DNA of 64,000 nt from Sphingopyxis sp. QXT-31 (GTDB taxonomy: Bacteria > Pseudomonadota > Alphaproteobacteria > Sphingomonadales > Sphingomonadaceae), in assembly GCF_001984035.1 (NCBI RefSeq), contig NZ_CP019449.1, positions 3,718,501 through 3,782,500 on the forward strand, in the 5' to 3' direction. Below, one piece after another: positions 210 to 63,653 of this stretch. Within the stretch, counting starts at the first letter, position 1, and every line of letters begins with the position of its first letter. Made by a program: the position numbers and the translations under genes. Below the pieces are notes generated by a model, which made no database searches, was not told where the DNA came from, and saw only the letters and a program-made list of their open reading frames with translations.

Positions 210-534
210 GCTCCTCTCCTGTCGTGCGGGCGCCTGTTTCCGGCGCCCTGCAGCGCATAAGCCTAGCGATTGGTCCGGTCGATGCAACGCAGGAACGGCA
301 GGCGGCGGCGCACACGGTCGATTGTCTAAAAGCGTGGCTTTTCGGCGACACTCTGCGCCGCCGCATAATATGCGTATACGTATACCCTATGGTGGCGCCG
401 GGCGATTGGTTCCAAGTGCGGGGGCAGACGATGGGATCAACCCACGCGGAAGGTGAGGATGCCGTGCGGCCGACTGGCGCCGCCCCCTTTGCCGACGCGT
501 GGCCAGACCACCCCGTCGCACCAGGGGTAAGAAC
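210..534. promoter_or_regulatory. Divergent regulatory region between lacI-type gene and TonB receptor
   Basis: This 325-base gap holds no convincing gene. It contains a -10-like TAATAT at 366-371, a 12-base perfect palindrome just downstream (374-385), and a ribosome binding site (AGGGGTAAG) just before the ATG at 535. I see no good -35 match. The arrangement fits repression of the rightward promoter by the divergent LacI-family protein. Confidence 0.6.
374..385. promoter_or_regulatory. Candidate LacI-family operator
   Basis: GTATACGTATAC is a perfect 12-base palindrome with a central CG, the usual centre of LacI/GalR-family operators. It lies 3 bases downstream of a -10-like TAATAT, where a bound repressor would block transcription towards the receptor gene. 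Binding by the adjacent regulator is inferred. Confidence 0.5.
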
Positions 535-3399
535 ATGAGCAAGCCGACCAATCGCCATCCGCAACTGCGCCGCGGCGCCAGCGTCCTCGCGCTGGGCCTC
601 GCGATGAGTGTCTTCGCGCCGCACGCCTTCGCGCAGGACAGCGCGCCCGTCGCCGACGATGCCGGCGAGGACGAGATCGTCGTCACCGGTTATGGCGCCA
701 GCCTGCAGAGCGCGGTCAACGCCAAGAAGACCCGCGACCAGATCGTCGAATCGGTGTCGGCCGAGGATATCGGCAAGCTACCCGATGCGTCGATCGCCGA
801 AGCGATCGCGCGCCTGCCGGGCCTCACCTCGCAGCGCGTGTCGGGGCGTTCGAACGCGATCTCGATCCGCGGTTTCGCGCCCGACTTCTCGACCACCCTG
901 CTCAACGGCCGCGAGCAGACCTCGACCGGCGACAATCGCGCGGTCGAATATGACCAATATCCCAGCGAGGTCGTGAACCAGGTCCTCGTCTACAAGACGC
1001 CGATGGCGTCGATCGTCGGGCAGGGCCTGTCGGGCACCGTGGACCTGCGCACCATCCGTCCGCTCGATTACGGCAAGCGCGTGTTCTCGATCGGTGGGCG
1101 CGGCACCTGGGCCGATCTCGGCAAGCTCAACGTCGGGTCGAAGAAATATGGCTACCGCGTCAACGGCGTGTTCGTCGACCAGTTCGCGAACGACACGCTC
1201 GGCATCGCGCTGTCGGCGAGCTATGTCGACGAGCCCTATCAGATCCAGGAATTCAACGCCTGGGGCTATGCCGGGGGCGGCACCGCCGCGAGCCCGGTGG
1301 TGATCGGCGGGTCGAAAAGCTATGCGACCTCGACCCAGCTGACGCGCCTCGGGCTGCAGGGCACGGTGCAGTGGCGCCCGCATCCCAATTTCACCTCGAC
1401 CTTCGATGCGTTCTATTCGGATTTCAGCGACGACCAGATCAAGCGCGGCATCGAACTGCCGCTCGGCTTCGAGGGCAGCGTCGGGGTCAATGTCACCGAC
1501 GTCGACAGCAGCGGCGAGTTCGTCTTTGCGCGCGCGGGCACTTTCACCAATGTCGAGGGCGTGGTGCGCAACGACGTGTTCGAGCGTAACGCCAAGCTCT
1601 ATTCCTTCGGCTGGAACAACAAATGGGAAGGCGACGACGGTTGGAACGTCACCGCCGACATCAGCCTGTCAAAGACCGACCGCAACGAACTGATCCTCGA
1701 AAGCAACGCTGGCACCGGGCGCGGCGCGGGCGTCGGCGCGCGCGATACGATCGGCTTCACCAGCGACATCAACGGCACGGTGTTCAGCCCGACGCTCAAC
1801 TATGGCGACTATAATCTGATCAAGCTGACCAGCCCGCTCGGCTGGGGCGGCAACCAGACCGGGGTCAACGGCGACCGCATTCAGGGCGGGCAGGACGGCT
1901 ATTACAACAACCGTATCATCGAGGACGAGCTGTGGCAGTACCGGGTCGAGGTCGAGCGCGAACTCGACGGCTTCCTGAAATCGGTGCAGTTCGGGGTCAA
2001 TTATACCGACCGCAAGAAGAGCCTGACCCCCGACGAGGCCTTCGTCGGGCTGGTCGCGAACACCGACGGGCTGACCAGCGTCACCATCCCCGAGGAGTTC
2101 CGCCGCGGCACGACCAATCTCTCGTACCTCGGGCTCGGCCCGGTGGTCAGCTACGACCCGCGCGACCTGCTCGCGGCGGGCATCTACCGGCTGGTGCCCA
2201 ACCCCTATGGCGACGTCGTGGTCAAGGCCTATGACGTCTCCGAGAAACTGATGACCACCTATCTCCAGGCCAATATCGACCAGGAAATGGGCTCGTCGGC
2301 GCTGACCGGCAATATCGGCGTCCAGGCGATCTTCACCGACCAGAATTCGAACGGCGCTTCGGGCTCGTTCATCGGGACCAACCCCAATGGCTCGCCGAAC
2401 ATCCAGGGCATTCCGCAGCGCCGGAGCACCGATTATCTCGACGTCCTGCCCAGCCTGAACCTGTCGCTGCGCACCGACAGCGATTTCGTGATCCGCCTCG
2501 GCCTCGCGCGCGAGATCATCCGGCCGCGGCTCGACGACATGCGCGCGTCGCTGAGCTATGGCACGACGATCGGCGATCCGGGCGGGATCGTCTGCCCGGC
2601 CGGTCGGACCTGCGCCGTCGTGCGCGGCGATGCGGGTAATCCCGACCTCCGCCCGTGGCGCGCCAACGCCGCCGATTTGACCTTCGAGAAATATTTCGGC
2701 GGCTCGGGCTATGTCGCGGTGCAGCTGTTCTACAAGCAGCTGAAAAGCTATATCTACAACCAAGCGATCCCGTTCGACTTCACCGGCTATCCTATTCAGG
2801 CGCCGGGTAACGATTCGGGGGATACGGATGGCGACGGCTTCCCCAACCGCGATCCGCTGCCGATCATCGTCAACTACATGGGCACGATCAACGCGCCGAT
2901 CAACGGCGAGGGCGGCAAGCTCTACGGCGCCGAATTCGCCGCGACCTTGCCGTTCAGCACCTTCACCTCGGCGCTCGATGGCTTCGGGCTGACGGGCAGC
3001 GCGTCCTATACCAAGACCAATATCCAGCCGACCCCGGGCGCGCCGTCGGAGGACATCCCCGGCTATTCGAAATGGGTCGCCAACGGCACCGCCTATTTCG
3101 AGAAATGGGGCTTCAACGCCCGCGCCAGCGCGCGCTACCGGTCGAGCTTCATCGGCGAGCTGTCGGGCTTCGGCGGCAACCGCGTGCGGCGCCGCGCGCG
3201 GGCCGAGACGATCATCGACGCGCAGATCGGCTATGATTTCCAGCCGGGCAGCGCGCTCGAAGGCCTGTCGGTGTTCGTCCAGGGCCAGAACCTGACCGAC
3301 GAGCCCTTCGTCACCGACGATCCGCGCGATAGCCGGGCGGTGATCGACTATCAGACCTATGGCCGCCGCTTCCTCGCGGGCGCCTCGTTCAAATTCTGA
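535..3399 (+). CDS. TonB-dependent receptor, alpha-glucan uptake type
   Basis: This 954-residue outer-membrane receptor has a signal peptide ending around ...FAPHAFAQ (residues 20-34) and a TonB box (EDEIVVTGYG, about 45-54). A plug domain follows (SVSAEDIGKLPDASIAEAIARLPG, RGF and GREQTST motifs), then a long beta-barrel ending in the outer-membrane signature RRFLAGASFKF with terminal Phe. ATG at 535 is chosen over the in-frame GTG at 499 because AGGGGTAAG precedes it and the signal peptide then starts cleanly. It leads a cluster of GH13 and GH97 enzymes, so it probably imports maltodextrins across the outer membrane using ExbB/ExbD/TonB energy. The substrate is inferred from its neighbours. 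Confidence 0.93.
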   Translation: MSKPTNRHPQLRRGASVLALGLAMSVFAPHAFAQDSAPVADDAGEDEIVVTGYGASLQSAVNAKKTRDQIVESVSAEDIGKLPDASIAEAIARLPGLTSQRVSGRSNAISIRGFAPDFSTTLLNGREQTSTGDNRAVEYDQYPSEVVNQVLVYKTPMASIVGQGLSGTVDLRTIRPLDYGKRVFSIGGRGTWADLGKLNVGSKKYGYRVNGVFVDQFANDTLGIALSASYVDEPYQIQEFNAWGYAGGGTAASPVVIGGSKSYATSTQLTRLGLQGTVQWRPHPNFTSTFDAFYSDFSDDQIKRGIELPLGFEGSVGVNVTDVDSSGEFVFARAGTFTNVEGVVRNDVFERNAKLYSFGWNNKWEGDDGWNVTADISLSKTDRNELILESNAGTGRGAGVGARDTIGFTSDINGTVFSPTLNYGDYNLIKLTSPLGWGGNQTGVNGDRIQGGQDGYYNNRIIEDELWQYRVEVERELDGFLKSVQFGVNYTDRKKSLTPDEAFVGLVANTDGLTSVTIPEEFRRGTTNLSYLGLGPVVSYDPRDLLAAGIYRLVPNPYGDVVVKAYDVSEKLMTTYLQANIDQEMGSSALTGNIGVQAIFTDQNSNGASGSFIGTNPNGSPNIQGIPQRRSTDYLDVLPSLNLSLRTDSDFVIRLGLAREIIRPRLDDMRASLSYGTTIGDPGGIVCPAGRTCAVVRGDAGNPDLRPWRANAADLTFEKYFGGSGYVAVQLFYKQLKSYIYNQAIPFDFTGYPIQAPGNDSGDTDGDGFPNRDPLPIIVNYMGTINAPINGEGGKLYGAEFAATLPFSTFTSALDGFGLTGSASYTKTNIQPTPGAPSEDIPGYSKWVANGTAYFEKWGFNARASARYRSSFIGELSGFGGNRVRRRARAETIIDAQIGYDFQPGSALEGLSVFVQGQNLTDEPFVTDDPRDSRAVIDYQTYGRRFLAGASFKF

Positions 3400-44461: not shown

Positions 44462-44586
44462 CTTGCTTGCCCGTCCCCGCTGCCCGGCGTTAGTCCGGTT
44501 GCATCGGGGCGAGGCAACCTCCCGGTCAGGCATCCGCCCAAGCGTTGCTTTTTCACCCGGCTTTGCCGGCTGGAGAAGCGTGACCG

Positions 44587-52217: not shown

Positions 52218-53285
52218 ATGACCTCCGTTTCCGCCCGCCAGATCGACGCCATCATCGAACGCCACGCCGCCTTGCAGGCGCGCATGGCGACGGGCGATAT
52301 GGCGCCCGCCGACTTCGTCGCGGCGTCGAAGGAGTTTGCCGAGCTCGAACCCGTGGCCAGGGCCGCGGCCGAGGTGGTGCGGTTGCGCGGCGAGCTGACC
52401 TCGCTGAACGAGATGCTCGCCGATCCCGAGATGAAGGCGATGGCGGCCGAGGAACTACTGGCGGTCGAGAAGGCCTTGCCCGCTGCCGAGCACGACCTCG
52501 CGATCAAATTGCTGCCCAAGGATGTCGCCGACGAACGCTCGGCAATGCTCGAAATCCGCGCCGGGGTGGGCGGCGACGAATCGGCGCTGTTCGCGGGCGA
52601 CCTGCTCCGCATGTACAGCCGCTATGCCGATCTGCGCGGTTGGAAGGTCGAGATCATCTCGGCGAACGAGGCCGAGGTCGGCGGTTACAAGGAAGTCGTC
52701 GCGAGCGTCGCGGGGCAGGGCGTCTTTGCCAAGTTGAAATTCGAGAGCGGCGTGCACCGCGTCCAGCGCGTGCCGGTGACCGAAAGCGGCGGGCGCATCC
52801 ACACCAGCGCGGCGACCGTCGCGGTGCTGCCCGAGGCCGAGGAGGTCGACGTCGCGATCGCCGACAGCGACCTCAAGATCGACATTTATCGGGCGAGTGG
52901 AGCGGGCGGGCAGCACGTCAACACGACCGACTCGGCGATCCGCATCACGCATATCCCGACCGGGCTCGTCGTCATCCAGCAGGACCAGCGCAGCCAGCAC
53001 AAGAACCGCGCCAAGGCGATGCAGGTGCTTCGCGCGCGGCTCTACGACCTCGAGCGCGAGAAGATCCACAGTGCCGAGGCATCGGCACGCAAGTCGATGG
53101 TCGGATCGGGCGACCGCTCCGAGCGTATTCGCACCTATAATTTCCCGCAGGGGCGCGTGACCGATCACCGCATCAACCTGACGCTCCATCGCCTGCCCGA
53201 GATATTGGAAGGCGCGATGGACGAGCTGGTCGACGCGCTGATCGCCGAGGACCAGGCACAGCGGCTGGCGGGGCTTGGTGACTGA
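52218..53285 (+). CDS. prfA: Peptide chain release factor 1
   Basis: The 355-residue RF1 has the GGQ catalytic tripeptide at about 230-232 ([17 protein letters not shown]), stop-codon recognition in the [20 protein letters not shown] segment, and C-terminal [20 protein letters not shown]. It terminates translation at UAA and UAG. It follows hisS closely and precedes prmC, which methylates its GGQ glutamine. Confidence 0.97.
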
Positions 53286-53310
53286 CCGGGTAAGCCTTGC
53301 CATCCCAAAC

Positions 53311-53392
53311 CCGTTCGCATCGAGCGAAGTCGAGATGCCCATCGGGACGGCACCATGCCGAGGGTTGTCTCGACTTCGCTCGACACGAACGG
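53311..53392. repeat. Dispersed palindromic element, family A (copy 3)
   Basis: Same arms as the copy at 12868: left CCGTTCGCATCGAGCGAAGT, right ending CGCTCGACACGAACGG, between prfA and prmC. The start codon of prmC lies 23 bases beyond its right end, so the hairpin is transcribed in the leader between the two cistrons. Confidence 0.88.
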
Positions 53393-53414
53393 AATTTTGT
53401 GTGGGTGCCAGGGT

Positions 53415-54257
53415 TTGAACGAGGTTGCCGACAATATCCGCACCGCGGCCAATCTGCTCGGCGCGACCAGCGACACGCCGCGGCTCGATGCCGAATTACT
53501 GATGGCGCATGCGCTGGGGATCGAGCGGCAGGCGCTGCTGCTCGATCCGGGGCTGTTCGAGGTGCCCGAGCACTACGCGAACCTGGTTGCCCAGCGGATG
53601 GCGCACGTGCCGATCGCCTATATCCTCGGCTATCGCGATTTCTGGACGATCCGGATCGAAGTCGGCCCGGGGGTGCTGATCCCGCGGCCTGATAGCGAGA
53701 CCTTGGTGGAGGCGTGTCTCGACTTCGCTCGACACCAACGGGGAGAGGGGTGGCCGAGGCGCGTGCTCGATCTCGGGACGGGGCCGGGCACCTTGCTGCT
53801 CGCGGTGCTGAGCGAGTTTCCCGAGGCGACCGGCGTCGGCGTCGATGCGTCCGAATTCGCACTCGCCTATGCACGCGACAATGCCGAGGCGCTGGGCATG
53901 GCGGCGCGCACCGAGTTCCGCGCGGGCGACTGGGGCGCCGGGATCGACGGCCCCTTTGACCTCATTCTCTGCAACCCGCCCTATATCGGCGACGGCGAAG
54001 TGCTGATGCCCGACGTCGCTGACCATGAGCCGGTCGAAGCGCTGTTCGCGGGCGCCGACGGGCTCGATGACTATCGCCGGATCATCCCCGACCTGCCGCG
54101 CCTGCTGGCGCCCGGCGGCATCGCGGTGCTTGAAATCGGCGCGAGCCAGCATATCTCGGTACGCGAACTCGCCGAAACGGCGGGTTTCGACGTCGCTTGC
54201 CGCCAGGACCTCGGCGGCCGCGACCGCGCTCTCATCCTGTCCCGTTCGCCGCGATGA
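53415..54257 (+). CDS. prmC: Release factor glutamine methyltransferase, with an in-frame repeat fragment
   Basis: The TTG start at 53415 gives a 280-residue PrmC: an N-terminal helical domain, VLIPRPDSETLVEA, the SAM motif RVLDLGTGPGTLLLA, then FDLILCNPPYIGDGE with the NPPY motif (N187). It methylates the Gln of GGQ in RF1 and RF2 using S-adenosylmethionine. A half copy of the family A palindrome (53712-53742) is read in frame, adding about ten residues (CLDFARHQR) between PDSETLVEA and GWPRRVLDL, where orthologues have a variable loop. An upstream in-frame ATG at 53355 lies within the palindrome and is less likely. Confidence 0.9.
   Translation: MNEVADNIRTAANLLGATSDTPRLDAELLMAHALGIERQALLLDPGLFEVPEHYANLVAQRMAHVPIAYILGYRDFWTIRIEVGPGVLIPRPDSETLVEACLDFARHQRGEGWPRRVLDLGTGPGTLLLAVLSEFPEATGVGVDASEFALAYARDNAEALGMAARTEFRAGDWGAGIDGPFDLILCNPPYIGDGEVLMPDVADHEPVEALFAGADGLDDYRRIIPDLPRLLAPGGIAVLEIGASQHISVRELAETAGFDVACRQDLGGRDRALILSRSPR
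53712..53742. repeat. Half copy of family A palindrome inside prmC
   Basis: GTGTCTCGACTTCGCTCGAC with the flanking CACCAACGGGG matches the right arm of family A elements at 12868, 22153 and 53311. It lies inside the coding sequence and keeps the reading frame. Confidence 0.8.
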
Positions 54258-54510
54258 CCCGCAATAATTTGCTTGGTTTCGCGCCGAAAGCGGGTTAGGG
54301 GCGTGGATACAGGCCTGATCAGGGTCCCTTTGGCGGTGCAGAGCATCGATACTGGTCCGGCGGGTCTGCTTCCCATTTACGATGCTGGTGCGGGACGAAG
54401 GTCCCGGGCGAGCGGTAACAGGAAGAACCGCGCAAGGGAGCGCGGGCACGACGCGCAAGGGCGCGGTCGGCCAAAAGGGGTTGGCATAGCTAAGAGCTTA
54501 TTTCGACAGG
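54258..54510. other. Leader region before the DUF4167 gene
   Basis: This 253-base gap has no convincing frame. It contains several short GC-rich stems and purine-rich segments (for example CGCAAGGGAGCGCGGG) and ends in GACAGG before the ATG at 54511. A structured 5' leader is possible, but I recognise no known riboswitch or RNA family. Confidence 0.35.
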
Positions 54511-55386
54511 ATGTCTCAGTTGAACATGAACAACCGTCAGGGCGGTCGCCGTCGCGGCCGCAACAACAATAACAACAATAACAACCGCTCGGGATCGGGC
54601 GGCGGTGGCCGCGGCGGGGTCGATCAGGCCAACCGCATCGACAGCCGGGCCCGCGGCAACGCGGTCCAGATGATCGAGAAATACAAGAATCTCGCTCGCG
54701 ATGCCCAGCTTTCGGGCGACCGCGTGCAGACCGAATATTATCTGCAGTTCGCCGACCATTATTTCCGCGTGCACAGCGATTTCCGCGCGCGCCAGGAAGA
54801 ACGGAACGGCGGCTCGCAGGATCGCCCCGACCGCCAGCGCGAAGTGCGCGGGGTCGAGGATTTCGACGCGCATGACGACACCGACCTCGACGAGGGCCAG
54901 GGCGATCAGGACGAAGGCCGCGAGGATAATCGCGGCGAGCGGAATGATCGCGGCGACCGCGACAATCGCGAGCGTGGTGAGCGCAACGATCGTAACGAGC
55001 GTGGCGATCGCGGCGACCGGAACGATCGTGGCGACCGCAATCAGAACCGCGGCAACCGCCGCGACGAGAATGACGACAATCGCGGCAATCGCCAGCGCCC
55101 CGAGCGCGTCGAGGCCGAACCGCGCGCCGAGCGCGAAGAGGAAGCCGCGGTCGAGGAAGCCCCCAAGCCCGCGCGCGCCGCGCGCCGTTCGCCGCGCCGT
55201 CCGCGCGACGAGGACGAGGGCAATGGCGGGATCGACAGCGCCGTGCTGCCCCCCGCGATCGGCCGCCCCGCGCCCGAACCCGTCGCCGAGGCCGATGCGG
55301 CCGACGACGAAGCGCCCGCGCCCAAGGCGCGCCGCACCCGCCGCACGCTCGCCCCGCGCGGCGCCGGCGTCGAGGCTGCCGAATAA
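54511..55386 (+). CDS. DUF4167 domain protein with disordered charged tail
   Basis: This 291-residue protein begins with a low-complexity Arg/Gly/Asn stretch (RRRGRNNNNNNNNRSGSG). The DUF4167 core follows (about 40-95: NRIDSRARGNAVQMIEKYKN, SGDRVQTEYYLQFADHYFRV). After it comes a long tail of repeats such as GDRNDRGDRN and NRGERNDRGD (about 145-190) and an Ala/Pro/Arg-rich end. DUF4167 is a conserved alphaproteobacterial family of unknown function; the charged RG and RND repeats suggest RNA binding or phase separation. The position after prfA-prmC is shared with other alphaproteobacteria. Confidence 0.88.
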   Translation: MSQLNMNNRQGGRRRGRNNNNNNNNRSGSGGGGRGGVDQANRIDSRARGNAVQMIEKYKNLARDAQLSGDRVQTEYYLQFADHYFRVHSDFRARQEERNGGSQDRPDRQREVRGVEDFDAHDDTDLDEGQGDQDEGREDNRGERNDRGDRDNRERGERNDRNERGDRGDRNDRGDRNQNRGNRRDENDDNRGNRQRPERVEAEPRAEREEEAAVEEAPKPARAARRSPRRPRDEDEGNGGIDSAVLPPAIGRPAPEPVAEADAADDEAPAPKARRTRRTLAPRGAGVEAAE

Positions 55387-55416
55387 GCCTAGCCAAGCGT
55401 CCCGAACTGACATAGC

Positions 55417-55444
55417 CTCTCCTCCACAACCATGTGGGGGAGAG
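55417..55444 (+). promoter_or_regulatory. Hairpin covering the ribosome binding site of the first DUF4139 gene
   Basis: CTCTCCTCCACA (55417-55428), loop ACCA, TGTGGGGGAGAG (55433-55444): a 12-bp stem with one U-G pair. The right arm contains the GGGGGAGAG ribosome site for the ATG at 55450, so the stem would hide it. It could be a thermosensor, an RNA-binding protein site or merely another palindrome. Confidence 0.5.
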
Positions 55445-55449
55445 CGATT

Positions 55450-56856
55450 ATGCGCGCTTTGGCAAAGGCTTGGCGGAATGGGGCTTGGCTTTTGGGAGCG
55501 GCAACCGTGCCCCTCCTGGTACTTCCCGCTTCGGCCCAGGACGAACTCGGCGGCACCGCGCAGGGCGATGTCGCGGTCACCATCTACAACAATGGCCAGT
55601 CGCTGGTGCAGGACGACCGCCAGCTCGCGGTCGCTGCCGGGCGCAACCGCATCGAATTCCCCGACGTGTCGGCGCGCATCCGGCCCGAGACGGTGACGCT
55701 GTCGGGCGGCGGGCTCGCGATCGTCGAGCAGAATTTCGACTTCGACCTGCTCACCCCCGACAAATTGATGGACAAGGCGGTGGGCCAACAGATCACGCTG
55801 GTGCGCACCAACCCTGCGACCGGCGCCGAGCGCAGCGAGCGCGCCAAGGTGCTTGCGGCGAACGGCGGCATCGTGCTCCAGATCGGCGAACGGATCGAGG
55901 TGCTGCGCGACGACGGCCTGCCGGTGCGCGCGGTGTTCGACCGGCTGCCGCCGAACCTGCGCGCGCGCCCGACCTTGTCGGTGACGGTGCAGTCGGAGAA
56001 TGCGGGAACCGTCCCCGCACGCCTCTCCTACCTCACACCGAACCTCGGCTGGACCGCCGATTATGTCGCGCTGTTCGACGCCGCCAAGGGCGCGATGGAC
56101 ATGCAGGGGTGGGTGACGCTCACCAACTCGACCGGCACGACCTTCACCAACGCGCGCACGCTGCTGGTGGCGGGAAGCCCGGGCGGCGGGGGCGGCTTTT
56201 CGCGGATGAACGCCTCGCTCGACGAAGCGGGGACCGAAAGCAACCAGCGCGAGCGGCTCGGCGACTATTATCTCTATCCGCTCGCCGAGCGCACGACGAT
56301 CGCCAATGCGCAGCAGAAGCAGGTGAGCTTCCTCGACGTGAAGGGCGCGCCCGCGCGCTCGACCTATGAATATGTCAACGGTTGGCTGGGCGCGAGCACC
56401 GACCCGATCAGCGCGGCGAGCGTGCTGCGCTTCTCGACCTCGGCGAACGGCGGGCTCGGCGACCAGCTGCCCGCGGGCACGATCCGCGTCTATATGCGCG
56501 ACGCGCGCGGGGACCCGCAGTTCATCGGCGAGAACCAGATCGGGCATACGCCAATGGGCTCGGCGATGACGCTGCGCACCGGCGACGCCTTCGACGTCAA
56601 GGTGCAGACCACCGTCGTCTCGCGCACGCGCAAGAGCGATTCGCGCTGGGTGACCAAGATGAAGTATGTCGTGACCAACGCGCGGCCGGGGCCGGTGACG
56701 GTCGATCTCGCGCAGTCGGGCCTGTGGGGCGACGTGCGGATCACCGACGAGAGCATCAAGAGCAACCGCGTCTCGGCCGACCGCGTCGAATGGGCGGTGC
56801 CGGTGCCGGCAAACGGCAAGACCGAAGTCACCGCCACTTTCGATTCGCGCTACTGA
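55450..56856 (+). CDS. DUF4139 family secreted protein, subfamily A (array gene 1)
   Basis: This 468-residue product has a signal peptide (MRALAKAWRNGAWLLGAATV...ASAQ). The N-terminal half is beta-rich (GDVAVTIYNNGQSLVQDDRQ, RIRPETVTL, AIVEQNFDFDLL). The DUF4139 segment follows: PTLSVTVQSENAGTVPARLS, LGWTADYVALFD, MQGWVTLTNSTGTTF and AQQKQVSFLDV. There is no VVTG box and no membrane segment after the signal. It is the closest relative of array gene 4. ATG at 55450 is chosen (GGGGGAGAG upstream) over 55432. DUF4139 occurs in bacteria and eukaryotes, and no function is established. Confidence 0.88.
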   Translation: MRALAKAWRNGAWLLGAATVPLLVLPASAQDELGGTAQGDVAVTIYNNGQSLVQDDRQLAVAAGRNRIEFPDVSARIRPETVTLSGGGLAIVEQNFDFDLLTPDKLMDKAVGQQITLVRTNPATGAERSERAKVLAANGGIVLQIGERIEVLRDDGLPVRAVFDRLPPNLRARPTLSVTVQSENAGTVPARLSYLTPNLGWTADYVALFDAAKGAMDMQGWVTLTNSTGTTFTNARTLLVAGSPGGGGGFSRMNASLDEAGTESNQRERLGDYYLYPLAERTTIANAQQKQVSFLDVKGAPARSTYEYVNGWLGASTDPISAASVLRFSTSANGGLGDQLPAGTIRVYMRDARGDPQFIGENQIGHTPMGSAMTLRTGDAFDVKVQTTVVSRTRKSDSRWVTKMKYVVTNARPGPVTVDLAQSGLWGDVRITDESIKSNRVSADRVEWAVPVPANGKTEVTATFDSRY

Positions 56857-56866
56857 GGCGCGGCCT

Positions 56867-58486
56867 GTGCGCTGGGCGCGCCTGATCCCGGCCTTGCTGC
56901 CGCTGCTCGCGCCGCTGTCGCTGGCGGCGCAGACCGGCGCGCGCCTGCCCGCCGCGCCGCCGCGGCCCGAGGCGCCGGTGATCATCTCGTCGGTGCTGCA
57001 GGACGTCGCGGTCACCGTCTATCGCGCGCCCTTTCGCGGCGCGGGGCCGATCAACCCCCAATGGCCGCAGGGTTTCGCGCTGGTCACCGAGACGCGCAAG
57101 GTGACGCTGCCCGCGGGCACCGCAGTGCTGCGCTTCGAGGGCGTGTCCGAAGGGCTGCTGCCCGAAACCGCGGTCGTGTCGGGCCTGCCCGACGGCGTGC
57201 GCGAGAAGAATCGCGACGCGCGATTGCTGTCCCCCGCGGGGCTGGTCGACGCGTACCTCAAGCGCAGCGTCACGCTCCGCCGCACCGACCGCAAGACCGG
57301 CAAGGTGCGCGAGCAGAATGCGATCATCCAGGCGGGGCCGAACGGCGGGGTGATCCTGCAGACCCCCGAGGGTTTCGAGGCGCTCGGCTGCTCGGGGCTG
57401 CCCGAGCGCATGCTCTACAGCCGCGTGCCCAAGGATCTGTCGGCGAAACCGACGCTGTCGATCCTCGTCGAATCGAGCCGCGCACGCACCGTGACGCTCC
57501 AGCTTGTCTATCTGTCCGAAGGCTTCGACTGGGCCGCCAACTATGTCGTCGACCGCGCCGACGGCGGCGCGGCGCTCGGCATGACAGGGTGGATCACCGT
57601 CGCCAACGGCGGGGTGACGAGCTTCCCGAACGCCCAGCTCAACATGATCGCCGGGCGGCTCAACAAGGGTTATCGCGCGCCGCTGCCGCGCACCCCGCCG
57701 GGGGCGCTGCGGCTGCAATGCTGGCCTATGGACATAACCAGCACGCACCCCTTCCGGGAGCTGCCGCCGATCGTCGAGGTTACGCAGGATTATGCCGAGG
57801 AGGTGATGGTGACGGGCAGTCGGCTGGGGCGCATGGCGCTGCCGGCGATGGCGCCGCCGCCACCCCCGCCGCCTCCGCCGCCCGCACCGCCACCCCCTCC
57901 GCCGCCCGCCGAGGATCTGGGCGACCTCAAATTCTATCGCATCCCCTTCCGCGTCGATGTGTCGGCGAAGGGGCAGAAGCAGGTCGCGCTGCTGATCAAG
58001 GACAAGGTCGGGGTCGAGCAGCTTTATGCCGGCACGCTCTATCAGTCTTACAACAATGCGCGGCAGCCGCTGGTGACGCGGCTGCGCTTGCAGAACCGCA
58101 GCGAGGACGGCCTCGGGCTCGCTTTGCCGGCGGGCACCGCGGCGGTGTTCGAGACCGTAGACAATCAGCGGCTTTTTGCGGGCGAGGCGCCGATCGGCGA
58201 CAAGGCGATCGGCGAGCGCGTCGATTACGACATCGGGCAAAGCCCCGCGGTGCAATATCGCGTCGTGGTCCAGCCGCGCGATCCGTCGGGCAGCTATCAG
58301 GACTGGCAGGTGACGCTTACCAACGCGCGGCCCTTCGACGCCGAGGTCGAACTACTCATCCCCTTCGCGATCGACCCCGAACCCACCACCTGGGAGCGGC
58401 GCGGCGCGAGTTGGGTATGGCGCGTGCGCGTCCCCGCGAACGACAGCCTGGTCCAGACCTTCCGCCAGAAATTGAAGAGCGGCTGA
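56867..58486 (+). CDS. DUF4139 family secreted protein, subfamily B (array gene 2), with TonB-box-like motif and polyproline
   Basis: The GTG start, ten bases after gene 1, gives 539 residues: signal peptide (to about SLAAQ), DVAVTVYRAPF, the B-subfamily block GLLPETAVVSGLPDGVREKN, ALGCSGLPERM and KDLSAKPTLSILVESSRART. In the middle, residues ~311-320 read EEVMVTGSRL, then a Pro-rich run of about 20 residues (57853-57909), then EDLGDLKFYRIPF and the C-terminal sandwich. The VTGSR box and Pro run sit exactly where gene 3 has a fuller TonB-box-like segment. Confidence 0.87.
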   Translation: MRWARLIPALLPLLAPLSLAAQTGARLPAAPPRPEAPVIISSVLQDVAVTVYRAPFRGAGPINPQWPQGFALVTETRKVTLPAGTAVLRFEGVSEGLLPETAVVSGLPDGVREKNRDARLLSPAGLVDAYLKRSVTLRRTDRKTGKVREQNAIIQAGPNGGVILQTPEGFEALGCSGLPERMLYSRVPKDLSAKPTLSILVESSRARTVTLQLVYLSEGFDWAANYVVDRADGGAALGMTGWITVANGGVTSFPNAQLNMIAGRLNKGYRAPLPRTPPGALRLQCWPMDITSTHPFRELPPIVEVTQDYAEEVMVTGSRLGRMALPAMAPPPPPPPPPPAPPPPPPPAEDLGDLKFYRIPFRVDVSAKGQKQVALLIKDKVGVEQLYAGTLYQSYNNARQPLVTRLRLQNRSEDGLGLALPAGTAAVFETVDNQRLFAGEAPIGDKAIGERVDYDIGQSPAVQYRVVVQPRDPSGSYQDWQVTLTNARPFDAEVELLIPFAIDPEPTTWERRGASWVWRVRVPANDSLVQTFRQKLKSG

Positions 58487-58489
58487 GCC

Positions 58490-60070
58490 ATGCGCGCGGC
58501 GGGTCGCCTTGCTGCCCTGCTGCTGGTGCTGGCCCCGGCGACGGCGGGTGCGCAAGGCGCTTACCCGATCGTGCAGTCGGTGGCGCCGGGCGACGTTGCG
58601 GTCACCGTCTACCGCGCGCCCTATCGTTCGTCGGGAGGCATCGACCCCGACTGGCCCGAGGGTTTCGCCTTCATCACCGAGACGCGCACGGTCGACCTGC
58701 CCGCAGGGACCGCGATGCTGCGCTTCGAGGGCGTCGCCGAGGGGCTGCTCCCCGAAACCGCGGTGGTGAGCGGGCTGCCCGATGGCGTGATCGAAAAGAA
58801 TCGCGACGCACGGCTGCTGTCACCCGCGGGGCTGGTCGACGCCTATTTGAAGCGCCTTGTCACGCTCCAGCGCACCGACCCCGCGACCGGCAAGGTGCGG
58901 CGGCAGGATGCGATCATCCAGGCGGGGCCGAACGGCGGCGTGCTGCTCAAGACTGCCGAGGGCTATGAGGCGCTCGGCTGCTCGGGGCTGCCCGAGCGCA
59001 TGACCTATGGCGGGGTGCCCAAGGATCTGTCGGCGAAGCCGACCTTGTCGGTGCTGGTCGAAAGCGACCGGCCGCGGCGGGTGACGATCCAGCTGCTCTA
59101 TCTCGCCGAGGGGTTCGACTGGTCGGCGAACTATGTCGCCGAGCGCAGCCCCGATGCGCCGACGATGGCGATGACCGGCTGGATCACGCTCGCCAACGGC
59201 GGGGTAACGAGCTTTCCCGGCGCACAATTGAACGTCATCGCCGGGCGGCTCGAAAAGCAGGAACGCAAAGGCGCGCTCGAGTCCGACGCCGGGCCGCTGG
59301 TGCTGCAATGCTGGCCGATGGATATCACCAGCACGCATCCCTTGTGGCAGCTGCCGCCGCTGATCCCGATTCGCGGGTCGCAGTCGGGCTATCAGGACGA
59401 TCATCGGCTGGGCGAGATCGTCGTGAGCGCGAAGCGCCGCGAGGAGTCGATGATGTACGCCTCGACCCCCGTCTCGGTGGTCAGCGCCGATTATCTCGCG
59501 CAGGGCGAAGATCTGGGCGACCTTAAATATTACCGCCTACCCTTCCGCACCGATGTCGCGGCGAAGCAGCAAAAGCAGGTCGCGCTGCTCGCGCAGGACA
59601 AGGTGCAATATGAGCAGCTCTATTCGCTCTATGTCGGACTCGCCAACGACCGCAGCTTTCGCCCCGCGGGAATCATGATGCGGGTCTGGAACCGCAAGTC
59701 CGACGGGCTGGGCCTCGCGATGCCCGCCGGCACCTTCGCCTTGTTCGAACAGGTGGCGGGCCGGCGGCTGCTGGTTGGCGAAGCCTTTTCGACCGACCGC
59801 GCGATCGACGAGCGCATCGACTTCGAATTCGGCGCGAGCGGCGGGGTTCAATATCGCGTCGTGGAGAAGGCGCGCGAGAAGGGGCGGCGCGACTGGGAGG
59901 TGACGGTCACCAACGACCGGCCGGTCGATGCCGAGGTCGAGATGAGGATCCCCTTCGCGCTCGATCCCGAGCCCGTGGGGCGCGAGCGGCGCGGCGACAG
60001 CTGGATCTGGCGCGTGCGCGTGCCCGCGAACGGCACGCTGGTGGAGACATTCCGCGAGAAGGCGGACTGA
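58490..60070 (+). CDS. DUF4139 family secreted protein, subfamily B (array gene 3), with TonB-box/plug-like insert
   Basis: This 526-residue protein is very similar to gene 2 over most of its length (ETAVVSGLPDGVIEKNRDAR, GPNGGVLLKTAEGYEALGCS, LQCWPMDITSTHPLWQLPP). Signal peptide: LLLVLAPATAGAQ. Residues ~309-335 read GEIVVSAKRREES...TPVSVVSADYLAQG. This copies the TonB box plus start of the plug domain of TonB-dependent receptors, inserted before EDLGDLKYYRLPF. It starts three bases after the gene 2 stop. Confidence 0.87.
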   Translation: MRAAGRLAALLLVLAPATAGAQGAYPIVQSVAPGDVAVTVYRAPYRSSGGIDPDWPEGFAFITETRTVDLPAGTAMLRFEGVAEGLLPETAVVSGLPDGVIEKNRDARLLSPAGLVDAYLKRLVTLQRTDPATGKVRRQDAIIQAGPNGGVLLKTAEGYEALGCSGLPERMTYGGVPKDLSAKPTLSVLVESDRPRRVTIQLLYLAEGFDWSANYVAERSPDAPTMAMTGWITLANGGVTSFPGAQLNVIAGRLEKQERKGALESDAGPLVLQCWPMDITSTHPLWQLPPLIPIRGSQSGYQDDHRLGEIVVSAKRREESMMYASTPVSVVSADYLAQGEDLGDLKYYRLPFRTDVAAKQQKQVALLAQDKVQYEQLYSLYVGLANDRSFRPAGIMMRVWNRKSDGLGLAMPAGTFALFEQVAGRRLLVGEAFSTDRAIDERIDFEFGASGGVQYRVVEKAREKGRRDWEVTVTNDRPVDAEVEMRIPFALDPEPVGRERRGDSWIWRVRVPANGTLVETFREKAD

Positions 60071-60084
60071 GAGGGAGAGGGTCG

Positions 60085-61566
60085 ATGGGATCGAAAACAT
60101 GGGGCCTGTTGCTCGCGGCGGGGCTGGCCGTGCCGGGCGCGGCGCAGCCGACGGTGAGCACTGCGGGGCAGGGCGATGTTGCGGTGACGATCTACACCGG
60201 CGAGCTCGCGCTGGTCACCGATGTGCGGCCGACCACCTTGCCCGTCGGGGAATCGCGCGTCGAATTCCCCGACGTGTCGAGCCGCATCCGCCCCGAGACG
60301 GTGAGCCTGGTCGGCACCGGGCTCGACATCGTCGAGCAGAATTTCGACTTCGACCTGCTTTCTCCTACAGCGATGATGGCGAAGGCGGTGGGGCAGGAGA
60401 TCACGCTGATCCGCACCAACCCCGCGACCGGCGCCGAGACGCGCGAGCGCGCCAAGGTGCTCGCGGTTAACGGCGGGGTGGTGCTCGATTTCGGCGGGCG
60501 GATCGAGATTTTGCGCGACGACAACCTTCCCGTGCGCGTGATCTTCGACGGCATCCCGACCAATTTGCGCGCGCGCCCGACCTTGTCGGTGACGGTCGAC
60601 AGCAAGACCGCGGGCACCCGCCCGCTGACCCTGCGCTACCTCTCCGAAGGGATGAGCTGGCGCGCCGATTATGTCGCGCTCTACGACGAGGCGGCGAAGG
60701 CAATGGACCTGCAGGGCTGGGTCACGCTCAAGAACAACAGCGGCACCGGTTTCGCCAACGCCAAATTGCTGCTCGTCGCGAGCAACCAGATCGGGGTGCG
60801 GCGCGGATCGCGCGGCGGCGACGGCGAACCCGCAGCGCTGACCAGCGCAGGGACCGAGACCGCCAAGGCCGAGGCGCTCGCCGACATGTTCGCTTATCCC
60901 ATCAATGACCGCACCACGATCGCCAGCGCGCAGCAGAAGCAGATCGCCTTCCTCGACGTCATGGCGGTCCCCGCGCAGCGAGGCTACGCGGCGTCGCACG
61001 ACCGCTTCACGACCCTCGAGGAAGCGCAGAGCGTGATGTCGACCTATCGTTTCTCGACCGGCAAGGGCGGGGTCGGCGACGCGATGCCCGCGGGATCGGT
61101 GCGGCTCTATGTCAAGGACGCGCGCGGCGCGGCGCAGTTCGTCGGCGAGAGCTATATCGGCCACACCAGCGCGGGATCGATGCTGTCGCTCGCGACGGGC
61201 AAAGCGTTCGACGTCAAATATCAGCCGATCATCGAGAAGCGCGAGAAGCTGACCGAGGAGGACTGGACACGCAGCAGCAGCACGCGGGTGCGCAAGAATG
61301 GCGTGGTCACGGTCACAGAGACCGATGTGAAGCGCAATTTCTGGCGCACCCACATGCGCTACATCTTCACCAACGCGCGCCCGCAGCCGATAACGGTCGA
61401 ATTCACCCAGGCGGGGCTCAACACCTATAGCAACGACACGCGCGTGCCGTTCGAGAGCCTCGCCGCCGAGAGTGACGACAAGGCGTGGGAGAGCCGCAAA
61501 TGGCAGGTGACGATCCCCGCCAACGGGCGCACCGAGCTGACCGTCCAATATGATACGCTGAACTGA
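60085..61566 (+). CDS. DUF4139 family secreted protein, subfamily A (array gene 4)
   Basis: This 493-residue protein is closest to gene 1: GDVAVTIYTGELALVTDVRP, FPDVSSRIRPETVSLVGTGL, IVEQNFDFDLLSP, RTNPATGAETRERAKVLAVN, ARPTLSVTVDSKTAGTRPLT. Signal peptide: MGSKTWGLLLAAGLAVPGAAQ. There is no VVTG box. An Arg/Ser/Thr-rich loop (TRSSSTRVRKNGVVTVTETD) near the end is absent from gene 1. Ribosome site GGGAGAGGG; it begins 14 bases after gene 3. Confidence 0.88.
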   Translation: MGSKTWGLLLAAGLAVPGAAQPTVSTAGQGDVAVTIYTGELALVTDVRPTTLPVGESRVEFPDVSSRIRPETVSLVGTGLDIVEQNFDFDLLSPTAMMAKAVGQEITLIRTNPATGAETRERAKVLAVNGGVVLDFGGRIEILRDDNLPVRVIFDGIPTNLRARPTLSVTVDSKTAGTRPLTLRYLSEGMSWRADYVALYDEAAKAMDLQGWVTLKNNSGTGFANAKLLLVASNQIGVRRGSRGGDGEPAALTSAGTETAKAEALADMFAYPINDRTTIASAQQKQIAFLDVMAVPAQRGYAASHDRFTTLEEAQSVMSTYRFSTGKGGVGDAMPAGSVRLYVKDARGAAQFVGESYIGHTSAGSMLSLATGKAFDVKYQPIIEKREKLTEEDWTRSSSTRVRKNGVVTVTETDVKRNFWRTHMRYIFTNARPQPITVEFTQAGLNTYSNDTRVPFESLAAESDDKAWESRKWQVTIPANGRTELTVQYDTLN

Positions 61567-61569
61567 GTC

Positions 61570-63261
61570 ATGTCGGGCCGGGTCGCGGCAGCTCTACTGG
61601 CACTTGCGCTCTTCGCCGCGCCGCCCGCGTGCGCGCAGGATGTGCCGGTGGTCGGCTCGGCGAAACCCGACAAGGTGGCGATCAGCCTCTATCGCGATCC
61701 GTCGCGCGATACCGATACGCGGCTGCCCGAGCCCGGCGACGAACTCGGCGGCTTCGCGCTGATTCGCGAGACGCGCACGCTCGACCTGCCGCCGGGGCCG
61801 GTGACCGTGCGCTTCGAGGGGGTGTCGAGCAGCATCATTCCCGAATCGGCGTTGCTGCGCGGGGGCGGGCGGCCGCGCGAGAAGAATTTCGACCGGCGCT
61901 TGCTGTCGCAACGCGGGCTCGTCGACGCCTTCACCGGGCAGCAGGTGCTGCTGCGCACGACCGACAAGGCGACGGGCAAGGCGAGCTATGAGCGCGTACG
62001 CATCCGCTCGGGCGGCGAGGATTTGATCATCGAGCGCAAGGGCGGATTCGAGGCGGTGCAATGCGCGGGCCTCGCCGAGACCCTGCTCTACGACGCGTTG
62101 CCCGCGGGGCTGACCCCGGTACCGACGCTGTCGATGTCGCTCGGCGATCAGCCGGGCGGGCGCACCACGCTGGAGCTTACGTATCTGGCGACCAACTTCG
62201 ACTGGCAGTCGAACTATGTCGGCGAGATCGGGGCCGATGCCGACGCGGTCGATCTCTTCGCCTGGCTGACCGTCGCAAGCGGCGATTCGATGAGCTTCAC
62301 CGGCGCCGACATGGCGGTGATCGCCGGGCGCATAGCCTTTTTTGCGCAGGCGCCGCTCGGCGACGACGAAAGCCGCTGGGAGCAGGAGGAGCGGATCGAG
62401 GAAGAGAAACGCAACGATCCGTGGAACCCGGAGAATATCGAGATCTGGTTCAGCTGCTGGCCGCAGGGCGGAACGGGTGGCGGGTCGTACAACCCGCGCC
62501 TGTTCGGACCCGCGTCGATCCCGAGCTACGACCCGCAATATGCGCTCGGCATGGTCGGCGGCGATTTCTACGGCGGTGGGGGCGACGAAGACGGCGCCGA
62601 GATCGTCGTCACCGGATCGCGGATCGCCCCGCGCGAGGATATCGGCGACTATAAGCTGTACCGCGTGCCGCAGCCGACGACGCTCGGCGCGCAGAGCCGC
62701 AAGCAGATCGCCTTTCTCGAAAAGCCGGGGGTCGCGGCGCAGTTGCTCCACATCTTCGAAGTGCGCGGCGAGAATTTCAATTGGCAAGACGGTCCGGTGC
62801 TGCGGTGCGACAACAAGAAGGGCGGGCCGCTCGCGGAGCCGCTTCCCGGCGGACAGGTCACCCTGCTCCAGCGCCGCGCGGGCGAGCCGATGCTCGTCGG
62901 CGAGACCGGCGTGAAGGACAAGGCGGTCGGCGAACTCGTCGACCTGCAGCTCGAGGATGCCGAGGACATCTGGGTCGATGCCGACCAGGAAGAAGTCGAT
63001 TCGGGCGAGGGCTGGACGCGCTACCGGCTGACCGTCACCAACGACAGCGAGACCGCCGAGCCGGTCGAGATCAGCTTTGCCAATGACGCGGATTATGCGG
63101 TCGACCGGATCAGCAAGCCGGTGAAGCTGCGCGACGGCAAACGCATCTGGTCGGTGACGGTGCCGCCCGAAGGCAAGAGGACGATCGAATATCGCGTGCG
63201 CGAAGTGGCGCGAATCGGCGCCGACAATCAGGACGATTGGGAAGAGCCCGACGACTATTAG
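61570..63261 (+). CDS. DUF4139 family secreted protein, subfamily B, divergent (array gene 5)
   Basis: This 563-residue protein has a signal peptide (VAAALLALALFAAPPACAQ). It is recognisably of the B subfamily (GGFALIRETRTLDLPPGPVT, RGLVDAFTGQQVLLRTTD, LELTYLATNFDWQSNYVGEI) but with longer acidic loops (ESRWEQEERIEEEKRNDPWN). Residues ~344-352 read EIVVTGSRI just before EDIGDYKLYRVPQ, a clean TonB-box-like segment. It begins three bases after gene 4. Its stop overlaps that of the convergent thioesterase gene. Confidence 0.85.
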   Translation: MSGRVAAALLALALFAAPPACAQDVPVVGSAKPDKVAISLYRDPSRDTDTRLPEPGDELGGFALIRETRTLDLPPGPVTVRFEGVSSSIIPESALLRGGGRPREKNFDRRLLSQRGLVDAFTGQQVLLRTTDKATGKASYERVRIRSGGEDLIIERKGGFEAVQCAGLAETLLYDALPAGLTPVPTLSMSLGDQPGGRTTLELTYLATNFDWQSNYVGEIGADADAVDLFAWLTVASGDSMSFTGADMAVIAGRIAFFAQAPLGDDESRWEQEERIEEEKRNDPWNPENIEIWFSCWPQGGTGGGSYNPRLFGPASIPSYDPQYALGMVGGDFYGGGGDEDGAEIVVTGSRIAPREDIGDYKLYRVPQPTTLGAQSRKQIAFLEKPGVAAQLLHIFEVRGENFNWQDGPVLRCDNKKGGPLAEPLPGGQVTLLQRRAGEPMLVGETGVKDKAVGELVDLQLEDAEDIWVDADQEEVDSGEGWTRYRLTVTNDSETAEPVEISFANDADYAVDRISKPVKLRDGKRIWSVTVPPEGKRTIEYRVREVARIGADNQDDWEEPDDY

Positions 63262-63653
63262 ATCGGCGGCAGCGGCCGCGGCCGGTGATTTTCGTCGAGC
63301 GCGACGAAGGTGAACACCCCCTCGGTCACGCGCTCCTCGGTCCGCCCGCCGTCGCGCGTCGCGACGACCTCGAGCCGGATCGCCATTGAGGTCCGCCCGC
63401 GGCGCTCGAGATGCGCATAGATCGAGATGATGTCGCGCAGCAGGATCGGCGCGATGAACTCCATCGTCTCGATCGCGACCGTCGCGACAGGGCCCTGCGC
63501 GACGCGCCCCGCGACGATGCCGCCCGCGATGTCCATCTGGCTAAGCACCCAGCCGCCGAAGATATGGCCGTTGGCATTGATGTCGGCGGGACGCGGGACG
63601 ACGCGCAGGATCGGATCGCGCGGGCAGGCGGGTGCTGCGGGCCTATCGCTCAT
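63258..63653 (-). CDS. YciA-type acyl-CoA thioesterase
   Basis: This 131-residue hotdog protein has RVVPRPADINANGHIFGGWV, the conserved Asn and Asp region of YciA (NGHIFGGWVLSQMDIAGGIV), TVAIETMEFIAPILLRD and GVFTFVALDENHRPRPLPPI. It hydrolyses acyl-CoA in the cytoplasm. It overlaps the upstream membrane-protein gene by eleven bases, and its stop overlaps the end of the DUF4139 array. Confidence 0.92.
   Translation of the reverse strand: MSDRPAAPACPRDPILRVVPRPADINANGHIFGGWVLSQMDIAGGIVAGRVAQGPVATVAIETMEFIAPILLRDIISIYAHLERRGRTSMAIRLEVVATRDGGRTEERVTEGVFTFVALDENHRPRPLPPI

Follow-up and report, generated by a model that had tools for sequence, protein, structure and literature searches.

Why do five genes for related secreted proteins stand in a row in Sphingopyxis sp. 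QXT-31, and what distinguishes them from one another? The question is raised by a window of 64,000 nucleotides (the whole stretch of DNA that was analysed), in which the genes, here called D1 to D5, follow one another on the plus strand at 55450..63261. An earlier note on this DNA had described them as tandem and co-directional, with gaps of 3-14 bases and products of 468-563 residues, and this is borne out by the open reading frames, which are all intact and separated by 10, 3, 14 and 3 bases, and by BLASTP. All ten protein pairs match, with a best expectation value (E) of 0.0 for D2-D3, 4e-160 for D1-D4 and a weakest one of 2e-25 for D4-D5, thus the homology of the five is far above chance. 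They fall into two kinds in the order A-B-B'-A'-B''. The A kind comprises D1 (55450..56856; 468 residues counted from the second ATG, 474 if the ATG at 55432 is used) and D4 (60085..61566; 493 residues), which match at 51% by BLASTP and have no cysteine. The B kind comprises D2 (56867..58486; 539 residues, GTG start), D3 (58490..60070; 526 residues) and D5 (61570..63261; 563 residues), which match at 30-62% (D2-D3 62%, D5 with D2 or D3 30-32%). A and B proteins match each other at 29-33% on alignment. The five-gene array itself is of modest interest. The main finding is that B proteins carry a conserved sequence resembling a TonB box, specific to this one member of the A-B pair. Searches among open-access papers gave no text on it. 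TonB boxes are known from outer-membrane importers, of which they are the hallmark, and from bacteriocins that make use of these importers.

Where does the box lie, and how constant is it? In the B proteins that were read, the segment before a conserved LGDxKLY strand is a loop that differs in length and in make-up (rich in glycine, proline or acidic residues), and the motif [DES]-[IV]-[IV]-V-T-[AG]-x-[RK] lies within this loop. In D5 it reads EIVVTGSR (residues 344-351, 62599..62622) and stands near the C-terminal end of the loop, while in D2 it reads EVMVTGSR (residues 312-319, 57800..57823), with nearer forms in relatives of the genus and, as in other D2-type loops, a longer distance to the strand owing to a polyproline tract. 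In D3 the box and the stretch behind it, EIVVSAKRREESMMYASTPVSVVSADYL, occupy residues 309-336 (59414..59497). Distinct B loops number 210 (216 B proteins were taken, less duplicates and those without the anchor), and 175 of them have the strict motif, against 0.07 expected from shuffled loops; outside the loop it occurs in 8 of the 210 proteins. It occurs in none of 141 distinct A loops, a count made less independent by 120 of the source proteins, which are close Sphingopyxis relatives (84-97% identical). More diverse than these loops are 87 A frames of named loci, to which we return below. Nor is there a box in the single A-like genes read from other orders. Among the 120 listed relatives of D5 (the best of 770), 117 have the motif by a loose regular expression, 12-16 residues before the strand; of the remaining three, P0025 and P0119 show a box by eye without the anchor and P0112 has a degenerate one. 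D5 itself matches B proteins at about 39-47% from place 25 of its match list onward. At the loci of the genus, 19 of 22 B frames carry the motif and the other three carry variants such as EITVTARRR. Two B frames were without the anchor when the loops were read locus by locus. In an alignment of 62 rows, V347 is the same throughout, I345 and T348 reach at least 90% conservation, and most flanking columns vary. As to the A proteins, they have a short loop motif of their own, mostly AGTE[ST], before LGDYYLYPL in D1 and LADMFAYPI in D4, with G261 invariant in 50 sequences.

Is this motif the same thing as the boxes of real receptors? The genome of the strain provides its own control. As a DNA pattern, [DE][IV][IV]VT[AG] is found 45 times in the genome and its reversed form 3 times, and in 36 of the 45 cases a Plug domain follows on the same strand after 20-144 nucleotides. 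Standing just before Plug domains, these 36 are TonB boxes of receptors. One of them is inside the window, in a TonB-dependent receptor with a Plug hit at 499-3399 (plus strand), whose box EIVVTGYG stands at 673, near its start. The other nine occurrences are in D2, in D5, in a secreted S9 peptidase, in a frame antisense to a receptor, and in five places that look cytoplasmic or unrelated by eye. For a profile, receptor boxes were picked through the 30 best Plug hits, so that they were not selected by the motif itself; 26 of these have the strict motif upstream and 29 have a box by a looser pattern. The columns of the 29 receptor boxes (I; V/I; V; T; A/G; T/S/Q; R/K; R/I) are those of 184 B loops. 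A weight matrix built from the 29 boxes finds, at 15 bits or more, 59 of 96 B frames, none of the 87 A frames and 3 of 1064 other frames; the numbers are 69, 0 and 10 at 12 bits, and 74, 6 and 31 at 9 bits. All 74 B matches of 9 bits or more fall within 110 residues before the strand. Within the array, D5 scores 26.8, D3 17.1, D2 9.2, D1 2.2 and D4 2.1 bits. In D3 and its relatives the likeness goes on behind the box into plug-like sequence, as in EIVVSAKRREESMMYASTPVSVVSADYL of D3 against DIIVTAQRREESLQDVPVAVSVLSGDTL of the receptor at locus L071. In its likeness to the starts of receptor plugs, the tail of D3 reaches a z-score of 4.6 against shuffles. For 19 loops with at least 20 residues behind the box, plug-likeness with the box excluded gave z > 3 in five, five beat all 60 shuffles, and the rest did neither. 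Five B proteins also have pieces of the type LNxLPQ, which we take to resemble receptor plugs. The S9-type peptidase mentioned above (assigned by eye; L032:1417 onward, plus strand; G000:C1:10705) has DIVVTAQKGR right behind its signal peptide, as receptors have; one of its relatives in the genus has DIVVMAQKGR, and four others went unrecognised by the script.

TonB boxes are loosely defined, so might the motif be unrelated to TonB? It could be a structural lead-in to the LGDxKLY strand, alike to a box by convergence. The fixed spacing of 12-16 residues in D5 relatives would be natural for such an element, and in the AlphaFold2 model of D5 the predicted local distance difference test (pLDDT) climbs from 45 to 80 where the loop meets that strand. 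However, the distance is longer in D2-type loops with polyproline, A proteins have the corresponding strand yet lack the motif, and the likeness to receptor boxes extends to the acidic, A/G and R/K columns and sometimes into plug-like sequence. We therefore regard a purely structural origin as rather unlikely.

What do the models and the cysteines add? The D5 model has a mean pLDDT of 77.3 and ordered beta domains; residues 289-354, which contain the box, are below 50 and are thus predicted to be disordered. The D1 model has a mean of 85.7, with low values confined to the N-terminus and to 244-255, twelve residues in the position of the loop. The succession of strands is similar in both when their strand lists are compared, and as far as these two models go there is no sign of the unrelated folds that the earlier note had raised as a possibility. 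The mature part has at least two cysteines in all 96 B frames, and 78 of the 87 A frames have none there. Across the 62 aligned rows neither C165 nor C296 varies, and C296 stands at the start of the loop, where a disulphide may staple it. All five proteins have a hydrophobic N-terminus that looks like a signal peptide by eye, which suggests a periplasmic location. A and B are apparently secreted, soluble, beta-rich proteins of one fold, and most likely they act together in the periplasm.

On this basis a scenario can be given for the mechanism, one that we slightly favour: B may be a client of TonB, soluble in the periplasm, and act with A much as TolB does with TolA. What sets B apart from A is its long flexible loop, with the invariant cysteine at its start and what would be a TonB box at its end. 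TonB binds such a box by adding a strand, as described in PMC11658791, and it would bind the box of B in the same way in a disordered periplasmic segment. That B matches the boxes of receptors, that the match is confined to B, and that pairing and order are conserved can be seen at the level of sequence; binding of TonB to the box is likely, and so is a complex of A with B. In the sphingomonad receptor DdvT, which has the box IIVT, alanine at V or at T impairs uptake and both changes together equal a deletion, according to PMC6874591. These two residues are the most conserved ones of the box in B. TonB would then recruit or pull B with A as its partner, and use of force on B is possible. A precedent is given in PMC8928145, where the disordered N-terminus of TolB is bound by TolA through strand addition and pulling is proposed to part TolB from Pal. 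A stronger version is more tentative, and we hold it to be possible but doubtful: the Ton motor may be used in work other than transport, with ExbB-ExbD-TonB pulling the box of B and so driving an outer-membrane machine of A and B. An effect on the cell surface or on biofilm would be a guess by analogy with a distant member of the family, MuiA.

Several observations weigh against B as a TonB client. The strict motif is absent from 35 of the 210 B loops, some of which have degenerate forms only, with 7 of the 35 being cases of a misplaced anchor that were counted as misses. A B-like gene of the order at locus L025 lacks the box. At L116, L131, L140 and L149, where two B genes stand in a row, one of the two is without it, as if one copy sufficed. 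D2 taken alone is weak, since 31 of the 1064 other frames and 6 of the 87 A frames also reach 9 bits, and the case for its box is carried by its close relatives. The zero count in A loops comes to a large part from close relatives, as said above. An A-like gene stands alone in other lineages, which argues for a core function independent of TonB. Finally, searches with the predicted structures returned weak and general matches, nothing specific.

Might the box serve TonB without B being its client? The strongest rival is that B is a regulator or decoy, whose box competes with receptors for a few TonB proteins and thereby sets import capacity, no work being done on B. Against 65 Plug hits the genome encodes 4 TonB_C proteins, and the array contains neither; few TonB complexes with very many receptors are described for sphingomonads in PMC7142613. 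For such a role a free box in a disordered loop would be enough. It leaves unexplained, however, why A is linked, why the whole fold is conserved and why the cysteine at the start of the loop is invariant, and we consider a decoy unlikely on the whole. Another possibility ties B to one particular TonB-dependent receptor, as its cargo or its partner, for instance by being exported or displayed on the surface through it or by taking the place of a plug, with the box used as in colicins or in Oar-dependent secretion. Colicin M has its TonB box in an unstructured N-terminus as described in PMC11658791, the receptor Oar is required for secretion of the protease PopC as described in PMC6434023, and some B loops have the plug-like pieces. 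But the box of colicin M is terminal and that of B internal, and no receptor was found among the four named neighbours that were checked, the wider neighbourhood not having been searched for receptors. Such a cargo role seems improbable to us.

Having considered B as a TonB client together with A, there is a further question of concern: is the pair, or the array of five, the unit that is conserved? To this end a B profile was used to obtain 346 relatives among pattern-matching stretches of named genomes, and the best 80 loci were read. Note that each of these loci has a B by construction, while a preceding A is not by construction. In all 80 of them there is a B whose nearest family member upstream is an A. 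The arrangement is AB in 67, ABB in 6, ABAB in 3, BAB in 2, ABBAB in 1 and ABA in 1. The distances among A and among B proteins are congruent, with a mirror-tree r of 0.914 for 86 pairs where 2000 permutations gave a maximum of 0.146, and 58 of the 86 pairs have the same nearest neighbour in A and in B. This agreement shows that at the sequence level the pairs travel as units. It is no proof of contact, because linked genes inherited vertically give the same picture. The array is, as far as sequence comparison tells, two A-B pairs (D1-D2 as pair 1, D4-D5 as pair 2) and an extra B (D3), in other words a common pair stacked locally. The spacing makes it likely that the five genes are transcribed together.

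How widespread are the pairs and the array? Among 25 genomes of the genus, its own included, five genes are found in 3, four in 1, two in 17, one in 1 and none in 3; one of the five-gene arrays is spread over two contigs, and the single gene sits on a contig of 3.2 kb. In 11 of the 17 two-gene genomes the B is 72-77% identical to D2 (pair 1), and in the other 6 it is 43-53% identical to it. Several relatives (L017, L077, L078 and L083) have the array broken over two contigs in or near the polyproline tract of the counterpart of D2 (about 57854-57910 in the window), thus short-read assemblies can undercount the length of the array. Over the order, in a sample for which at least 95% completeness was requested, a B at E <= 1e-60 is present in 86 of 197 Sphingomonadales genomes and in 29 of 59 genera. 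More than one B match at this threshold occurs in at least 2 of the 197, its own included, a lower bound because at most 7 candidates were scored per genome. Of 289 genomes surveyed in the class, 44 have a match to the B profile at E <= 1e-10, with A-like genes included. Outside the order but within the class, among the loci that were read, a motif-bearing B adjoins an A in two genomes (G044 and G103), and in G304 one of two adjoining genes, both scoring higher with the A profile, has the motif as EAIVVSARK. If the Ton motor does drive B, such work outside transport would by these counts be done in more than two fifths of the Sphingomonadales genomes sampled, and in a few further Alphaproteobacteria.

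Then what becomes of a five-part machine in the envelope, in which each protein would be a subunit in its own right or have a ligand of its own? Five intact and tightly spaced frames would be expected of it, but five genes are present in just the 3 of 25 genomes of the genus, multiple B matches are as rare in the order as given above, Sphingopyxis sp. H050 (a draft genome) has pair 2 alone, and at two Sphingopyxis loci both pairs are present but D3 is missing. We find such a machine very improbable indeed. Of what the earlier note had proposed, a multi-subunit envelope system is still plausible, with the A-B pair of all 80 loci as the conserved unit in place of the five-member array, while a multi-ligand system has found no support. 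As for conservation of the array in relatives, which that note had left to be checked, the count of genes is not conserved and the order, A and then B, is.

Where do the pairs stand on the chromosome, and how did the array arise? In Sphingomonadales the pairs often occupy a slot prfA-prmC-DUF4167-[A-B]-thioesterase (52218-63653 in the window; loci L077-L156), and among the 80 loci, many of which end at contig ends, prfA is found in 36, prmC in 40, DUF4167 in 40 and the thioesterase in 45. Here the DUF4167 gene lies upstream (54511..55386, plus strand) and the convergent 4HBT thioesterase gene downstream (63258..63653, minus strand); no part in the function is claimed for either. The remark that the neighbours give no clue thus holds for function, yet the neighbours do mark a conserved slot. 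Within it, pairs 1 and 2 substitute for or stack upon each other; the pair 2 of H050, for example, follows DUF4167 immediately in this slot. Maximum-likelihood trees group D4 and D5 with counterparts from Parerythrobacter, Novosphingobium and Sandarakinorhabdus, and they put D1 and D2 near Sphingobium and D3 next to D2 within Sphingopyxis, the placement of D1 being taken from a list of nearest rows and the B tree being read without its deep part. By BLASTP and the trees, D3 is a duplicate of D2 that arose within the Sphingopyxis lineage. A search of the whole genome (one contig of 4.285 Mb) with D2 gave matches at only the five places of the array. Elsewhere in the window, a chrB-b RNA at 44504-44548 (plus strand; 39.8 bits, cut-off 36.5) is the only Rfam match at the gathering threshold.

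To which family do the proteins belong? Against DUF4139 (PF13598, cut-off 31.8 bits), D1 passes with 37.2, D4 and D5 fall short with 23.0 and 16.9, and there is no match for D2 or D3; a search of the whole genome with this profile gave D1 as its sole match. The description of all five as DUF4139-type is therefore right for D1 by the Pfam cut-off, and for D2 to D5, which do not pass by profile, it rests on their homology to D1. None of the five passes DUF4140 (PF13600, cut-off 27 bits), with 20.1 for D4, 18.4 for D1, 14.5 for D2 and no match for D3 and D5, nor the MuiA family TIGR02231 (cut-off 112.6 bits), with 16.6 for D1, 12.3 for D4 and no match for the other three. The Plug domain (PF07715) has no match in D1-D5, its 65 hits in the genome all being outside the array. 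No Pfam family for the 22-strand outer-membrane barrel of receptors matches the five either, and no barrel is among the structure matches shown. TolB domains, both the six-bladed propeller and the N-terminal one, have no Pfam match in the five at E <= 10.

If B is indeed a client of TonB, a paired soluble family with a TonB box would widen the role of the Ton motor beyond transport, as is the case for Tol, and the orphan DUF4139 fold would gain a role that can be tested. It would also bear on how sphingomonads supply dozens of receptors with only a handful of TonB proteins.

How then does B compare with known systems? TonB-dependent receptors have the same box, column by column in the 29 boxes of the genome, in similarly flexible surroundings, and D3 adds a plug-like stretch. 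They differ in that they have a Plug and a barrel, with the box just behind the signal peptide, while the box of B is internal to a loop and B matches neither domain. In the family of DUF4139, DUF4140 and MuiA, D1 belongs to PF13598 and D2-D5 are homologous to D1. MuiA of Pseudomonas inhibits swarming and enhances biofilm, according to PMC7603352. The difference is that TIGR02231 stays far below its cut-off here, and that the strict box is absent from A loops and from the single A-like genes that were read. The organophosphate hydrolase of sphingomonads is likewise not a receptor; it lies at the periplasmic side of the membrane and is found with ExbB, ExbD and TonB, as PMC7142613 describes. 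It is however a phosphotriesterase, and section 6 of that article does not mention a TonB box in it. A further parallel is TolB of the Tol-Pal system, a soluble periplasmic protein with a disordered segment that is bound by the C-terminal domain of the motor, as described in PMC8928145. By analogy B would be its counterpart for Ton, differing from it in having no match to TolB domains, in carrying the box in an internal loop, and in its likely partner, which is the paralogue A rather than Pal.

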